Virus record (IMG/VR): IMGVR_UViG_3300030102_003269
Span: 1 to 20,419 of that record
From: a virus
Length of the DNA: 20,419 nt
Strand: one strand, 5' to 3'
Shown: one piece after another, positions 3,866 to 20,419 of the stretch
Position numbering within the stretch: the first letter of the stretch is position 1
How the letters are laid out: each line of letters begins with the position of its first letter
Translations under genes and position numbers: made by a program
Notes under the pieces: model-generated
The model's database searches: none
Seen by the model: only the letters and a program-made list of their open reading frames with translations
What the model was told of the DNA's origin: nothing

Positions 3866-4984
3866 CTACTTAGTGAAAATCCAATTCATCTCCATTGCAC
3901 GTTTCTGGAACGTGTCGTTGTCGATTGCGATTTCCTGCTTCTTACTACTCATGATTGACCGATAGAATACAGCTTCCCACTCGTCCTTGAACTTGTCACG
4001 CATCATGTACTGACACAATGCTGTGAGTGTATCCTCTGCTGTTGTGACAATAGCTTTAGTCATCAACATACATTGAACCATCGTGTCTTCAGGGATAGGT
4101 GCGGTCTTAGGATTAGATAACAGATTACCCCAGTCTGGTAACTTGTAACCCATCTTGACCTCGGTCATCAGGTCTACACCACTAAGCGTACCAATTGCGC
4201 CACACAGAGATGCGGTCAACTCTTCCTCACTTATTTTTTGTTTAACTTTGACGATGTCACTTGCCACCTCAAGTGTGAACGGACACACAAACGCATCTAC
4301 ACTAGGTTCTCTGCTTGGGTTGAAAATACGCTTACTATCAGACCCATCTAGGTATGACTCCAAACAGTCGGGATGATTACGCACAAACATAATGACCTCT
4401 GGTGCAATATCATTATCCAAAGCATACTCCATCCAACTATCAGGCTCGACAAACTCCTTGCCATTCTCATCTACACCAATACCTGCGTGTGGCTTACGTA
4501 CCAACACCTTTACAGTACGTCTACGTTGATGAGCCTTGAGTGTATCCATCAACCCATCACTCGCACAGTTTGTAGTGGCAAGCACGAACGAACCCTCTGG
4601 CAGATAATTCATACCTTGTCTACGTTCTTGGAGGATTGGTAGTATGCCGTTGAGTGTACCCTGTGGTGCTTTACCCAACTCATCAAACATAATTAACTGT
4701 GGCTTGTCGTCCTGAAAACCCAACAAGTGATTCGGTGCAAAGACTGTGACGTGCATACCATTCATTTCGACAACACGTGGCATTTGAATGTCACCCACAT
4801 CTAGCGTAGTACAGTCAATAATGTTGTATCCCATCTTGTCGCCATAGTAATTCATTAGCGAATAAAAGATAGCAGACTTACCAATACCTGTCTCGCCCTC
4901 GAACAAAAACGTACGCTCATGACCCAATACTTTGACTAGGTTACTCGCACCACGCAAACTTACAGAATGATTGTATCCAATCAT
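3866..4984 (-). CDS. MoxR/CobS-like AAA+ ATPase
   Basis: A 372-residue AAA+ ATPase. Walker A is GETGIGKS at 30-37, Walker B LIMFDE at 97-102, sensor 1 lies in ATTN near residue 139, and an arginine-rich AHQRRR stretch at 151-156 could supply arginine fingers. The order and sequence style (GDIQMPR, APNHLLGF, LQERRQG, LPEGSFVLATTN) fit the MoxR/CobS clade, which uses ATP to remodel partner proteins through VWA-domain adaptors. The two downstream genes are the expected partners. CobS in the narrow sense belongs to cobaltochelatase, but no cobN-like gene is seen, so a cobalamin role is not supported. Its start is supported by AAGGAGAG. A promoter and hairpin sit directly upstream. Confidence 0.9.
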   Translation of the reverse strand: MIGYNHSVSLRGASNLVKVLGHERTFLFEGETGIGKSAIFYSLMNYYGDKMGYNIIDCTTLDVGDIQMPRVVEMNGMHVTVFAPNHLLGFQDDKPQLIMFDELGKAPQGTLNGILPILQERRQGMNYLPEGSFVLATTNCASDGLMDTLKAHQRRRTVKVLVRKPHAGIGVDENGKEFVEPDSWMEYALDNDIAPEVIMFVRNHPDCLESYLDGSDSKRIFNPSREPSVDAFVCPFTLEVASDIVKVKQKISEEELTASLCGAIGTLSGVDLMTEVKMGYKLPDWGNLLSNPKTAPIPEDTMVQCMLMTKAIVTTAEDTLTALCQYMMRDKFKDEWEAVFYRSIMSSKKQEIAIDNDTFQKRAMEMNWIFTK

Positions 4985-13843: not shown

Positions 13844-14797
13844 ATGGCTGAAGAGCAAAACTTACCTAACGAAGAGGATGTTAAGAAACCTGAAGCTGCT
13901 TTAGAGGCAAAGGCGTCTGATGTTGAGATAGAGATTGAGGATGATACTCCTGAAGAGGATCAGAACCGGAAAAATCTACCCAAAGAGTTAGTCCAGAAAT
14001 TAGAGTCTGATGAACTTGATGATTACGATGACAAAGTAAAAGACAAGATCTATCAGCTCAAAAAAGTCTGGCACGATGAGCGTCGTGAAAAAGAGCGGAT
14101 AGCAAGAGAGAATGCAGAAGCTATAAGAGCAGCTCAAAAGTTAAGAGAAGAGAATAAGCAATTAAGAGCTAATTCTGAAAACAATCAGACAGAGTACTTG
14201 AAAGCTATTGAGTCTGCTGCTGATTATGAATTGTTAGCTGCGAAACAAGCTTATAAAACTGCTCATGATGATGGCGATACTGACAAGATGACAGAAGCCC
14301 AGCAGAAGATAAGCGAAGCTACATATAAAAAAGAAAAAGTAAACCAATACAAAACTTCTTTACAAAATAAAGAAAATGATGTAAAACAAGAAGATAAAGA
14401 TGCACCCGCTGCTCTACCACCTGACGCAAAGGCTGTGGAATGGCAGAAACAAAATGACTGGTTCGGACAAGACGAAGAAATGACGAGCCTTGCGTTGGGG
14501 TTACATGAAAAGTTGGTAAGACAAAACGGCAGTTCTTACGCAACAACAGACGAATACTATAAACGAATTGACGAAACCATGAGGAAGAGGTTTCCAGAGC
14601 ATTTCGACGTTGAAGAAGTAGAGACGAAAGAACCTACTAAATCAAAACCTGCGGCAGTAGTTGCTCCAGTAACACGAACAACTTCATCAAAGAAGATACG
14701 ATTGACAACGTCACAAGTAAATTTAGCGAAAAAGTTGGGGTTGTCGCCAGAGCAATATGCTAAAGAAATGATTAAATTGGAGAATAGAAATGGCTGA
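13844..14797 (+). CDS. Scaffold-like protein
   Basis: A 317-residue, highly charged, helical protein with an acidic N-terminal region (including DVEIEIEDDTPEE at 26-38), a long coiled-coil about residues 65-120 and a basic, Ser/Thr-rich C-terminus (SSKKIRLTTSQVNLAKKLGL). This composition and the position three genes before the capsid gene fit a head scaffolding protein, which guides capsid assembly and then leaves. The start MAEEQ at 13844 has GGAG six bases upstream; an ATG at 13838 is directly against the GGAG and is less likely. It overlaps the next gene by eight bases. Confidence 0.75.
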   Translation: MAEEQNLPNEEDVKKPEAALEAKASDVEIEIEDDTPEEDQNRKNLPKELVQKLESDELDDYDDKVKDKIYQLKKVWHDERREKERIARENAEAIRAAQKLREENKQLRANSENNQTEYLKAIESAADYELLAAKQAYKTAHDDGDTDKMTEAQQKISEATYKKEKVNQYKTSLQNKENDVKQEDKDAPAALPPDAKAVEWQKQNDWFGQDEEMTSLALGLHEKLVRQNGSSYATTDEYYKRIDETMRKRFPEHFDVEEVETKEPTKSKPAAVVAPVTRTTSSKKIRLTTSQVNLAKKLGLSPEQYAKEMIKLENRNG

Positions 14798-15931: not shown

Positions 15932-16849
15932 ATGGCGATTTCAAGATCACAATTACTAAAAGAACTCCTTCCCGGCTTAAATGCTTTGTTTGGTTTAGAG
16001 TATGCCAAATATGGTGAAGAGCATAAGGAGATCTATGAGCAAGAGACTTCTGAGCGTTCGTTTGAAGAAGAGACAAAGCTTTCTGGCTTTGGAGCAGCCC
16101 CAGTAAAATCTGAAGGCGCAGCTATTGAATACGATAACGCACAAGAAGCATTTACAGCTCGCTATACGCACGAAACTGTTGCTATGGGCTTTGCAATAAC
16201 CGAAGAGGCTTCTGAAGATAATCTTTATGATAGTCTTGGCGCTCGTTATACAAAGGCTTTGGCTCGTGCTATGGCTTACACAAAGCAGGTTAAAGCTGCT
16301 GCAGTTCTAAACAAAGGCTTTACTGGAACAGGTAATCCTACCTATGGTGACGGAAAAGTATTGTTTGCAACTGATCACCCACTAGTTTCTGGTGGAACAA
16401 ACAGCAACCGTCCTACAACAGGCGCAGATTTAAATGAAACATCTCTTGAAGATGCGGTAATTCAGATTGCGGCTTGGACAGACGAGCGTGGTTTATTAAT
16501 TGCAGCTAAACCAAGAAAGCTAATTATTCCTCCTGCACTTCAGTTCGTGGCAACACGTATACTTGAAACACAGCAGAGAGTAGGAACAGCAGATAACGAT
16601 ATTAACGCTATTGTGACAACTGGAGCTATTCCAGAGGGTTACACAGTTAATCATTATCTAACTGATACTAACGCTTTCTTCTTAACAACTGATGTACCTA
16701 ATGGATTGAAGCACTTTGTTCGTGCGCCTATGGCGACTTCTATGGACGGAGACTTCGATACAGGTAACGTACGTTACAAGGCTCGTGAGCGCTATTCATT
16801 TGGCGTATCTGATCCTTTGGGTATGTTTGGTTCTCCGGGAGCTTCGTAA
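15932..16849 (+). CDS. Major capsid protein (HK97 fold, Mu gpT-like)
   Basis: A 305-residue protein beginning MAISRSQLLKELLPGLNALF. The order of segments resembles Mu gpT-type major head proteins: an acidic, helical N-terminal arm (KEIYEQETSERSFEEE), YDNAQEAFTARYTHETVAMGFAIT, a long helix LGARYTKALARAMAYTKQVKA, LFATDHPLVSGGTN, and the IIPPALQFVATRIL region. The protein should form the icosahedral shell with an HK97 fold. It is preceded by AAGGAGA and followed by a strong terminator, as expected for a highly expressed gene. Confidence 0.9.
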   Translation: MAISRSQLLKELLPGLNALFGLEYAKYGEEHKEIYEQETSERSFEEETKLSGFGAAPVKSEGAAIEYDNAQEAFTARYTHETVAMGFAITEEASEDNLYDSLGARYTKALARAMAYTKQVKAAAVLNKGFTGTGNPTYGDGKVLFATDHPLVSGGTNSNRPTTGADLNETSLEDAVIQIAAWTDERGLLIAAKPRKLIIPPALQFVATRILETQQRVGTADNDINAIVTTGAIPEGYTVNHYLTDTNAFFLTTDVPNGLKHFVRAPMATSMDGDFDTGNVRYKARERYSFGVSDPLGMFGSPGAS

Positions 16850-17229
16850 GAAGGTTCCACTTGGGAAAGGGAGCGTTTGCCGACTGCTCCCTTTTTCTTT
16901 TTCTTATCTACCCTTTCTTGATGGTGAAGCTTTCTATGACAGTTAGCGCATAACACCATACACTTCTTTATTTCTTCGTAGGCATCTTTAAAATTGTGAT
17001 TTGACACTAATTTATTAACTGGCCTATTATCTTTACTTCTTTTTATATGATGAAAATCTATAGTGGATATGTGTCTTTCTCCACATATTTCACAAGATAA
17101 AGATTCTTTAAATTCTAACCATTGTTTTTTAATTCTTTTTTTCCTTTCTTTATTTCTCCTAAGGTATGTATCTTTATTTTTTAAGTAGTGATCTCTTTTA
17201 TATTGCTTTCTTTTTTCATCATCTGTCAT
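16792..17229 (-). CDS. HNH endonuclease
   Basis: A 145-residue protein with a basic N-terminal helix region, then CEIC at 46-49, the HNH core DFHHIKR at 59-64, and CANCHRKLHH at 94-103. The two CxxC pairs bind zinc, and His60/His61 with later Asn/His residues form the nicking site. Such free-standing HNH nucleases are typical mobile passengers of phage genomes. Its final 36 residues are encoded across the capsid terminator and the 3' end of the capsid gene in antisense, overlapping it by 58 bases. The start overlaps the GNAT stop by four bases. Confidence 0.88.
   Translation of the reverse strand: MTDDEKRKQYKRDHYLKNKDTYLRRNKERKKRIKKQWLEFKESLSCEICGERHISTIDFHHIKRSKDNRPVNKLVSNHNFKDAYEEIKKCMVLCANCHRKLHHQERVDKKKKKGAVGKRSLSQVEPSYEAPGEPNIPKGSDTPNE
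16866..16900 (+). terminator. Intrinsic terminator after the capsid gene
   Basis: Arms AAAGGGAGC (16866-16874) and GCTCCCTTT (16886-16894) with an 11-base loop, followed by T-rich TTTTTCTTTTTC. It lies 17 bases after the capsid stop. The same bases are coding for the C-terminal part of the opposite-strand HNH gene. Confidence 0.88.
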
Positions 17230-17654
17230 AGTCTTTTAGCCCAATAGATTGAATTTTCATTACCCCAAGGGGAGCTTGGATATATTATTTTGTACTTACA
17301 CCGTATTAAGGAATTACTGGATGCGGGATTGTCAGTTGACGTATCCGTTATAATCCATGTATATCCTTTTTTTCTACTAAACCGTTCTCTTCTACGAATT
17401 AGTAATTTTTGTATACCCAAACCTCTATTATCTGGATGCACACAGCAGCGAGATAAATATGCTGTATCTAACCATTGTCGTGATGGAGTAATTAAACCAA
17501 ACGCTATTAGTATTTTGTTTTCATATACTAAAAACCATTCTCCTTCTGGTTCCTCAGACGGTGTAACTGGGTCATCAGCAGGTAGAGACAGTTTTTGTAA
17601 GAATATTAGTTGATTTACTTGTTTTTGGTTTAAATCTAAAGAGTTAACTCTCAT
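17226..17654 (-). CDS. GNAT-family N-acetyltransferase
   Basis: A 142-residue protein with strands WFLVYENKILIAFGLI, the acetyl-CoA pyrophosphate loop in VHPDNRGLGIQKLL at 72-85, and a C-terminal NSLIRCKYKIIYP segment typical of GNAT motif B. It transfers acetyl from acetyl-CoA to an amine; the substrate is unknown and could be a host protein or a small molecule. It forms a two-gene minus-strand unit with the HNH gene inside the rightward late genes, suggesting acquisition as a cassette. No strong ribosome binding site precedes its ATG. Confidence 0.85.
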   Translation of the reverse strand: MRVNSLDLNQKQVNQLIFLQKLSLPADDPVTPSEEPEGEWFLVYENKILIAFGLITPSRQWLDTAYLSRCCVHPDNRGLGIQKLLIRRRERFSRKKGYTWIITDTSTDNPASSNSLIRCKYKIIYPSSPWGNENSIYWAKRL

Positions 17655-18579: not shown

Positions 18580-18879
18580 ATGGCAGAAAAAAAGAAACGT
18601 AAGGGAATGGGGATTAGAACCTCTGTGAAGTCGGGTAATTTTCGCCCGACTAAGCAAGGTGCAGGTATGACTAAAAAAGGTGTAGCCGCATACCGTAGAG
18701 CTAACCCCGGTTCCAAACTTCAAACTGCTGTTACAGGTAAAGTTAAAAAAGGTTCTAAAGACGCAAAAAGGCGCAAGTCATTCTGCGCCCGTTCTGCAGG
18801 ACAAATGAAACAATTCCCCAAAGCAGCAAAAGACCCTAATAGCCGTCTACGGCAAGCTAGAAGAAGGTGGAAGTGTTAA
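18580..18879 (+). CDS. Basic DUF6321-like phage protein
   Basis: A 99-residue protein, extremely rich in Lys and Arg. It starts MAEKKKRKGMGIRTSVKSGN and carries GMTKKGVAAYRRANPGSKLQ, SKDAKRRKSFCARSAGQMK and DPNSRLRQARRRWKC, the pattern of small basic proteins seen in marine phages and, as I recall it, named DUF6321. Such a protein could bind DNA or act inside the virion; the role is not established. Two cysteines (SFCAR and the last residue) are notable. The ribosome binding site is weak. Confidence 0.8.
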   Translation: MAEKKKRKGMGIRTSVKSGNFRPTKQGAGMTKKGVAAYRRANPGSKLQTAVTGKVKKGSKDAKRRKSFCARSAGQMKQFPKAAKDPNSRLRQARRRWKC

Positions 18880-19142
18880 TGGAAAAAGAGGAAATACAAA
18901 AAATTTTTAGTAAAGACATAAACAGCAAAGTTGCCGTTCAAGGTAATGAGATAAAACATATGCAGCAAGATATGGATGACATGAAAGCTGACATAGAAGA
19001 AATAAAAAAGTCTTTAGTTGAAATTCACGCTGTATTATCAGAGGCTAAGGGTGGTTGGAAAACATTGATGTGGGCAGCGGGTGCGGGTAGTGCCGTGACT
19101 GCTTTTATTATTGCAATACAACAAATTTTTTGGGGGAAGTAA
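18879..19142 (+). CDS. Coiled-coil protein with one C-terminal membrane helix (XhlA/holin-like)
   Basis: An 87-residue protein: an N-terminal soluble part, a coiled coil at about 25-55 (IKHMQQDMDDMKADIEEIKK), then GGWKTLMWAAGAGSAVTAFIIAIQQIFWGK with a single transmembrane helix. This layout resembles haemolysin XhlA-type and some holin-associated proteins, so a lysis role is possible. No endolysin gene is seen in the window. The ATG overlaps the preceding stop by one base, with AAGGTGG eight bases upstream; an earlier GTG at 18867 is less likely. Confidence 0.7.
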   Translation: MEKEEIQKIFSKDINSKVAVQGNEIKHMQQDMDDMKADIEEIKKSLVEIHAVLSEAKGGWKTLMWAAGAGSAVTAFIIAIQQIFWGK

Positions 19143-19143
19143 A

Positions 19144-19602
19144 ATGGCACAAACAAGAGGTAAAACAGGTACACAATCTGGTAAAAGAGATACTCGTAAT
19201 ATAAAAAGAAAGATAAGAAAACTTCAGAAACAGTTAGAGGGTAAAGGCGATAGTGGTGTTACCACAGCTTATGGAGAAGTAGAAGAGTCTTATTCACCTT
19301 ATGGTGAAAGCATAAAGGGATTTAAAATGAAAAGGGGGCCAAAAGGCCAAGTACAGGGAGATGAGTACGTAAAAATAAGAGACCCCAAAGTCCCAGAAGA
19401 TGCAGGTTTTACAACAATAGATGCTAATAGGTTTGGAATTGACACGAGATTTTCACCGAAAATTGGTAAAACCACCACAATGGATAAGAAGAAAAAAGGC
19501 ATGAAAGCCGGAGGTAAAGTAAAAGCTAAGAAAAAAACAACCAGAAAATTTAGAGGCGATGGTATAGCTAGAAAAGGTAAAACGAAAGGGAGATTTGTAT
19601 GA
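19144..19602 (+). CDS. Basic protein with shared C-terminal RGDGIARKGKTKGRFV tag (1 of 3)
   Basis: A 152-residue, Lys/Gly-rich protein. It begins MAQTRGKTGTQSGKRDTRNI; GGGGGAAG precedes this ATG. The middle (about residues 40-120) is neutral to acidic with EESYSPYGESIKGF and FTTIDANRFGIDTRF. The C-terminal region MKAGGKVKAKKKTTRKF leads into the 16-residue terminal peptide RGDGIARKGKTKGRFV, repeated with minor changes in the next two proteins. Probably a virion or assembly protein by place; the tag has no known function that I can name. Confidence 0.8.
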   Translation: MAQTRGKTGTQSGKRDTRNIKRKIRKLQKQLEGKGDSGVTTAYGEVEESYSPYGESIKGFKMKRGPKGQVQGDEYVKIRDPKVPEDAGFTTIDANRFGIDTRFSPKIGKTTTMDKKKKGMKAGGKVKAKKKTTRKFRGDGIARKGKTKGRFV

Positions 19603-20081
19603 CAGGACTTATTAGAGGCGGGATACTCTTAGGTAAAGCTATTAAAGCAGGAAGAAAGGCTTTAAAAAAACGCCGAAAAGAAAAAGAAGATAAAGAGTTA
19701 ATAAAAGAATTTAAAGCCAGAGATGCTAAAGAGGCTAGACAGTTAAAAAAACTAGATGACGAAGCTAATAAAAAGGCAAGAGAAGAAATAGCAACTCCTG
19801 AATACAAAAGACAACGCAAAAGAGATTTAGACGCTACGACATTAAGGATGTTTAGAAAATCTAAAGAAAACCCTACTGGAGCAAAAAATCTAGAAGAAGC
19901 TAAACAAATGGCTAAAGAAACGGATGATTTTGTAGCGGATACTCTCTCTAACAAACGAAAATCTGATTTTAGATATAAAAAAGGCGGTAAAGTAAAAGCA
20001 AAAACTAAACCAAAAGCAACCAAAAAATTTAGAGGTGATGGTATTGCGAAAAGAGGTAAGACAAAAGGAAGATTTGTATAA
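19599..20081 (+). CDS. Basic coiled-coil protein with the shared C-terminal tag (2 of 3)
   Basis: A 160-residue protein. A short hydrophobic, glycine-containing N-terminus (MTGLIRGGILLGKAIKAGRK) is followed by a long charged helix rich in Lys, Glu and Arg (about residues 18-65), then a helical middle and the end KKGGKVKAKTKPKATKKF plus RGDGIAKRGKTKGRFV. The start overlaps the previous stop by four bases (ATGA). The N-terminus is similar to that of the third tagged protein, suggesting shared ancestry. Possibly an internal or ejected virion protein, which is inference. Confidence 0.8.
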   Translation: MTGLIRGGILLGKAIKAGRKALKKRRKEKEDKELIKEFKARDAKEARQLKKLDDEANKKAREEIATPEYKRQRKRDLDATTLRMFRKSKENPTGAKNLEEAKQMAKETDDFVADTLSNKRKSDFRYKKGGKVKAKTKPKATKKFRGDGIAKRGKTKGRFV

Positions 20082-20374
20082 TGGCTGAAAAAAAGAAAAA
20101 GTCTAGTCAAGTTGCTCTTGCACCAATTATAAGAGGGGGTGCTATGTTGGGGGGTGCATTTGGTGCGGGTAGAGCGGCTGAAGAATTATATCGAAAATAT
20201 TTTTCAGATGACGAAGAAGAAAAAAAAGAAGAAAAACCAAAGAAAAAGAAAAAGCCAATAAAGAGACTTCCAGATGGGGTAGAATCTATAAAAGTTAAAA
20301 AAGGCGGTTTAATAAAAGTTAGACGAGGTGATGGTATTGCAAAGAGAGGTAAAACAAAAGGACGTATGATTTAA
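20081..20374 (+). CDS. Small protein with Gly-rich hydrophobic N-terminus and the shared C-terminal tag (3 of 3)
   Basis: A 97-residue protein. It starts MAEKKKKSSQVALAPIIRGG and continues AMLGGAFGAGRAAEELY, a glycine-zipper-like hydrophobic segment that could associate with membranes. A strongly acidic then strongly basic middle follows (DDEEEKKEEKPKKKKKP), and the end is RGDGIAKRGKTKGRMI. Compared with the second tagged protein, both ends match but the central helical region is missing. The ATG overlaps the preceding stop by one base. Confidence 0.8.
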   Translation: MAEKKKKSSQVALAPIIRGGAMLGGAFGAGRAAEELYRKYFSDDEEEKKEEKPKKKKKPIKRLPDGVESIKVKKGGLIKVRRGDGIAKRGKTKGRMI

Positions 20375-20388
20375 AAAGGAGGTTTAGG

Positions 20389-20419
20389 GTGGCGTATTTA
20401 ATTAGTAACATTCCATATA
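20389..20419 (+). CDS. Partial CDS cut by the right edge, GTG start
   Basis: AAAGGAGG lies seven bases before a GTG that opens a frame reading MAYLISNIPY to the window end. The excellent ribosome binding site and position after the previous stop support a real gene. It resembles the start of a tail-region protein I recall from marine phages, but ten codons are too few to name it. Confidence 0.65.
   Translation, partial: MAYLISNIPY

Follow-up and report, generated by a model that had tools for sequence, protein, structure and literature searches.

A recurring C-terminal ending at a fixed place among head-and-neck genes suggests an undescribed virion address tag in short-tailed aquatic phages

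More than 100 unrelated small proteins of a large group of short-tailed aquatic phages carry a recurring ending, and their genes occupy a constant position within the head-and-neck block, which suggests an undescribed virion address tag. The ending has a fixed register relative to the stop codon, is modular with respect to the bodies that bear it, occupies a defined genomic slot and is of one class within a genome. We infer incorporation into the virion, a partner and a docking site, and put the probability that the tag is a virion docking peptide that brings in basic, disordered accessory proteins at roughly 0.58.

The window, the whole 20.4 kb stretch analysed here, is a linear IMG/VR virus record in which three consecutive ORFs end in a 16-residue motif (consensus RGDGIA[RK][KR]GKTKGR[FM][VI]; Table 1), as the original prediction had stated for three adjacent proteins. 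The motif is found three times on the plus strand and not at all on the minus strand, and a reversed control pattern has no match in the window. Between any two of the tails 5–7 of the 16 codons differ synonymously and 2–4 non-synonymously, so that the peptide is conserved and not the DNA; this, together with a terminal register beyond chance, agrees with the selection on the last 16 residues that had been proposed. The bodies were said to differ outside the peptide, and this holds in that they are unrelated, except that the first two tagged genes also have part of the spacer in common (GGKVKAK...K(K)F), which relates this pair over about 30 residues. K/R residues exceed D/E residues in all three proteins (42/16, 53/24 and 29/13 for proteins 1, 2 and 3), none of which matched a family in Pfam and PHROGs profile searches.

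Table 1. Tagged genes, their C-terminal tags and neighbouring features of the window.
Feature	Position	Strand	Description
Terminase large subunit (module marker)	9233..10759	+	phrog_38, E 1.7e-103
Portal protein (module marker)	10769..13288	+	phrog_1216; 40–42% identity to HTVC027P, HTVC023P, Pag-Yong1
GroES-like co-chaperonin, head module	13466..13834	+	PF00166, phrog_3188
Probable scaffold	13838..14797	+	phrog_28737 (function unknown); name inferred from position before MCP, acidic and helical character
Major capsid protein (MCP); upstream edge of tag interval	15932..16849	+	phrog_371, PF25209, PF10124
DUF6321 protein, recurring neighbour of tagged genes	18580..18879	+	PF19846, E 4.8e-13
Coiled-coil protein, hydrophobic C-terminal segment	18867..19142	+	same place in L151
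Tagged protein 1	19144..19602	+	152 aa, basic, no family; alternative start TTG at 19111
Class A C-terminal tag 1	19552..19599	+	RGDGIARKGKTKGRFV; stop codon 19600-19602
Tagged protein 2	19599..20081	+	160 aa, basic, no family
Class A C-terminal tag 2	20031..20078	+	RGDGIAKRGKTKGRFV
Tagged protein 3	20081..20374	+	97 aa, no family; Gly-rich hydrophobic stretch near N-terminus
Class A C-terminal tag 3	20324..20371	+	RGDGIAKRGKTKGRMI
Next gene start (GTG), VAYLISNIPY...	20389..20419	+	cut by window end after 31 bases

The genes of the window follow the order terminase, portal, GroES-like co-chaperonin, probable scaffold, MCP, DUF6321 protein, coiled-coil protein and the three tagged genes. In relatives the adaptor, which matches Pfam SU10_adaptor, lies 3' of the MCP gene, and the window ends before this position; the last, truncated gene of the window has likely homologues after the tagged genes in HTVC023P and in a phage contig (L151), and in relatives it precedes the adaptor. 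The closest isolates by MCP (64–73% identity) and portal (40–42%) are Planktothrix phage Pag-Yong1, phage DSL-LC04 and the pelagiphages HTVC023P and HTVC027P. Homologous MCP and portal genes and a matching gene order place the window in the HTVC023P/Pag-Yong1-type group; the HTVC023P type has been placed with Podoviridae (PMC9599517). The Cys/Arg-rich DUF6321 module of the window (KSFCAR...DPNSRLRQARRRWKC) also closes several long phage families that otherwise differ, as a C-terminal module matching the profile ends of phrog_10346, 3477 and 30733, and, as a regular neighbour of tagged genes, may be a second terminal module of similar kind. Directly 3' of the MCP gene and on the opposite strand, positions 16792–17654 encode a GNAT acetyltransferase and an HNH-like ORF (recognised by eye), which are probably an insertion in the head operon.

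The original prediction had proposed searching for the motif and counting its copies per genome. A DNA pattern for the tag matched at least 120 stretches of viral contigs, which were then translated with a relaxed motif. Among the copies listed from these contigs, 203/234 have the stop exactly three residues past the motif, and in the remaining copies it follows after 9–15 residues; two to five copies are present in 71 of the 124 loci listed, counts that include the window and three loci overlapping it. The bodies of the listed tagged proteins fall into about 107 unrelated families, with disorder-prone residues making up 84% of tagged bodies versus 71% of head markers. A slightly wider pattern matched only twice in 85,000 prokaryote genomes, once in a phage contig with the gene order of the window (L151) and once in a short contig bearing several tags (L152). 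At least one of these two contigs is clearly of phage origin; we therefore reject a cellular origin and regard the tag as essentially confined to phages.

Loci selected by MCP alone, irrespective of the tag, show the same register. A canonical tag is present in 26 of the 41 such loci that hold both MCP and adaptor, and all of their canonical tags (41/41) lie between these two genes on the same strand. Core matches in the MCP-selected loci fall 15–17 residues from the stop in 66/102 cases, as compared to a mean of 0.95 and a maximum of 2 for shuffled ORF ends, which rejects a chance origin of the terminal motif. Most MCP-selected loci that lack the canonical tag have divergent endings in the MCP–adaptor interval (e.g. 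KVRGAGIARKGVRPAKMR and RGAGCATKGTKFSGTY). Divergent endings are also carried by the Pag-Yong1 protein UMO75986.1 (GRDGCAKRGRTKGRFI) and HTVC023P gp51 (RGGGAAVRGMGFKGVF). Free loss of the peptide from homologues had been named in advance as evidence against a conserved signal, and loss is seen in part: no tag could be recognised among the proteins read in the MCP–adaptor interval of two loci (L220 and L257) or in that of the isolates CRP-901 and HTVC027P, the latter read in all but a small part. At positions 2001–2810 of another locus (L271), an orthologue 74% identical to a tagged protein has the tag replaced by a different tail (KVRKGMATPEGKIIDAMNKIRGK).

The peptide originally noticed is real, and it represents a single class (A) within a larger tag family. 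Members of the family are 16–17 residues long and combine a common core, R[GA]xGx[AC]x[KR]G, with one of four class-specific ends: KTKGRxx (A), VRPAKMR (B), xxFxGVx (C) and xMARGPMA (D). The last residues of the four classes have nothing in common, and class A in addition conserves D3-G4-I5-A6. The distance from the stop is fixed in 125/130 class B and 111/112 class C matches among those listed, and the DNA patterns for these two classes did not demand it. With the core R[GAMCSDT]xGx[ACV]xxG alone, 632 of the 798 matches listed lie at a distance of 15–17 residues from the stop, including 466 at distance 16 and 153 at distance 17, in a set for which most loci had themselves been picked by a tag pattern.

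Each class has its own slot in the loci listed. Classes A and B lie between MCP and adaptor with one to five copies per locus, class D follows the adaptor as a single copy in 130/130 loci, and class C mainly adjoins the portal gene. The MCP-selected loci give the same picture, with 39/44 class A copies between MCP and adaptor, the other five after MCP where the locus ends before the adaptor, and 24/24 class D copies after the adaptor. Class A copies are confined to the MCP–adaptor interval in five near-full contigs of 46–67 kb. In four of them a single D or D-like copy immediately follows the adaptor (in one case with a C-like end), and in the fifth (G003) no D or D-like copy was recognised.

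Tags within a genome nearly always belong to one class. Ninety-nine of the loci listed contain at least two class A or B tags; 82 of them are all A, 16 all B and one is mixed, while the MCP-selected set comprises 29 A-only, 4 B-only and no mixed loci. A conserved N-terminal body, SKKQHNFMAAVANNPxFAKKxGVPxSVG, is joined to an A-type end wherever it was classed in A genomes (59 cases) and to a B end in B genomes (eight cases), with no crossing; ten further endings on this body, one of them visibly B, fall outside the regular expressions for the classes, which were written after inspection of the data. Unrelated genes of one genome thus have the same class and orthologous bodies bear the class that prevails in the genome around them, which is what reading of the tag by a single genome-encoded partner would predict. 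Trees built for MCP, scaffold, adaptor, GroES and portal show two to three changes of class and pick out no single partner; class is confounded with phage lineage. The suggestion of a signal read by one partner thus gains from the terminal position, the peptide-level selection, the location in the head-neck block and the class common to a genome.

A link to the virion comes from the body of one tagged family, whose N-terminal domain of about 40 residues corresponds to phrog_16759 and also begins two families called virion structural protein. This type of domain occurs in the jumbo-phage proteins PHIKZ165.1 of phiKZ, GAP32_317 and CBB_322; PHIKZ165.1 lies close to gp163 and gp164, which are annotated as structural. 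Mass spectrometry of CBB virions identified CBB_322 from 30 peptides, at a coverage of 43.57% (PMC5259590, Table 4). The jumbo-phage proteins have the N-terminal domain of the tagged family but not its C-terminal tag, and the similarity, which concerns one tagged family, indirectly favours a virion location of the tagged proteins. In Shewanella phage vB_Sb_QDWS (L266, 8001–9848), a SKKQxxFMxxxAxNP-type domain forms the N-terminus of a 616-aa protein in which a NUDIX-like stretch was recognised by eye and whose gene closely follows that of the portal; the domain is thus portable between virion-region proteins.

We propose that the peptide is a C-terminal docking tag on basic, mostly disordered accessory proteins that would be made together with the late head-neck genes. 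The last 16 residues would bind a phage-encoded head or connector component, most likely at the portal, adaptor or nozzle, and the protein would thereby be built into the virion; the basic body may then extend along the DNA and be ejected together with it. The core positions R1, G2, G4, A6, K/R8 and G9 would provide a shared binding register, and the last seven to eight residues a class-specific fit. An AlphaFold model of a class D protein alone gave no confident fold (pLDDT 53.9), which is compatible, if weakly, with a linear motif. The model of another tagged family (L070) reached a pLDDT of 41.5 and lent no support to an enzyme-like C-terminal part that had been suspected there. A wider scheme, which we put forward tentatively as possible though doubtful, is a virion address code, in which the common core would be joined to endings that each designate one station, whether inner head or neck, post-adaptor or portal, and that matching, co-evolving phage receptors would read; the accessory proteins of a genome would share a class, and new bodies would be recruited by gaining the tag.

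Short C-terminal docking segments have counterparts elsewhere. Encapsulin cargo-loading peptides are short and C-terminal and dock cargo on an HK97-fold shell, a likeness by description to the tag in a different context. In Escherichia phage T7, the C-terminal loop of gp7.3 (residues 84–98 of 99) attaches to the nozzle gp12 where this meets the adaptor, and the mostly positive N-terminus, located around the DNA inside the channel of portal and tail, is not resolved (PMC11784390). The tagged proteins resemble gp7.3 in being small and basic and in combining an unstructured part, judged here from composition and one low-confidence class D model, with a short C-terminal segment (the last 15–16 residues are docked in gp7.3). 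Unlike the tag family, gp7.3 is one protein per phage and its gene lies upstream of portal. A comparison of gp7.3 with the tag family showed no sequence similarity, with no core match and a best score equalled by half of the shuffles, and we therefore suggest that the tagged proteins may work like gp7.3, not that they belong with it.

The tag could instead direct proteins to the prohead core, as in T4, by binding the scaffold or the inner surface of the capsid, in which case many copies would be packaged alongside the DNA and the variable bodies would be injected counter-defence or take-over proteins. T-even internal proteins are diverse small proteins with only a short capsid targeting sequence in common (PMC3012670), and the hypervariable bodies with one conserved short terminal tag that we find within a single phage are similar. 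The MCP gene lies immediately upstream, and in DSL-LC04 another protein is annotated for DNA transfer, which makes the tagged proteins look accessory. The capsid targeting sequence of T4, however, is N-terminal and its packaging is proven in another phage type, whereas the present tag is C-terminal and its packaging presumed, and no tagged body has a known injected function. We regard prohead targeting as unlikely, and a neck site as more likely than the inner head, given that the slot extends no further than the adaptor and that classes C and D have portal and adaptor as their neighbours. Both tag and bodies are basic, and an Arg/Gly/Lys-rich end could hold or condense packaged DNA with no protein receptor at all; but charge-driven binding would need neither the exact terminal register nor D3-G4-I5-A6 nor the genome-wide sharing of a class, and the alternative ends differ beyond charge, which makes simple nucleic-acid binding quite improbable.

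Peptides at the C-terminus often serve as signals for proteases or for sorting, and a host protease, membrane or nucleoid component might read the tag. The hosts of the relatives are very different (SAR11, Roseobacter and cyanobacteria), the class tracks phage lineage with two to three changes, and the A, B, C and D endings lack common last residues, all of which leave a host-directed tag very improbable. We give equally little credence to a by-product of recombination, in which shuffling would place different bodies on one 3' end, and this end would spread with little function. It would account for the fast turnover of bodies around a common end and for the orthologue with another tail (L271), but not for tag identity (0.77) exceeding body identity (0.54) in related pairs. 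Moreover, tails compared within loci have a codon identity of 0.47 at their shared residues, and those compared between loci 0.43, so that the tails of one genome are neither recent copies nor gene-converted, and recent duplication or gene conversion of the tails is rejected.

Terminal docking peptides are already known as a kind; what appears new, as far as could be found, is a family of C-terminal endings built on one core, with classes tied to particular slots and a single class in each genome. Pfam, PHROGs and NCBIfam hold no model covering the tag itself, and a PDB sequence search returned no match for the tail, the MCP profile or the adaptor. The class A and B motif strings were not found in phage papers, in a search that covered a minority of the subscription journals. 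A tblastn search of phages with the bare 27-residue tail, a query probably too short or filtered, gave no match, and neither did whole tagged proteins as queries; the tagged protein of Pag-Yong1, used as a query for related loci, found no relative. If the docking reading is true, the rule of 16–17 terminal residues with the core RGxGxAx[KR]G gives a virion role to many unannotated small proteins of widespread aquatic phages, and it becomes directly testable which small proteins such phages carry and inject. This kind of short C-terminal tag would also offer a means of loading short-tailed phage particles with proteins.

A second recurring body motif, FxxAFxxARxxGxxxFxWNGKxYxT, is found on both class A and class C endings (L010, L012, L016, L027, L042, L118, L079 and L389). 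Elsewhere in the window, the minus strand encodes a DUF2201 metallopeptidase/VWA protein and an AAA ATPase (positions 1616–2875 and 3866–4984), a MoxR-VWA-like pair in a phage genome.
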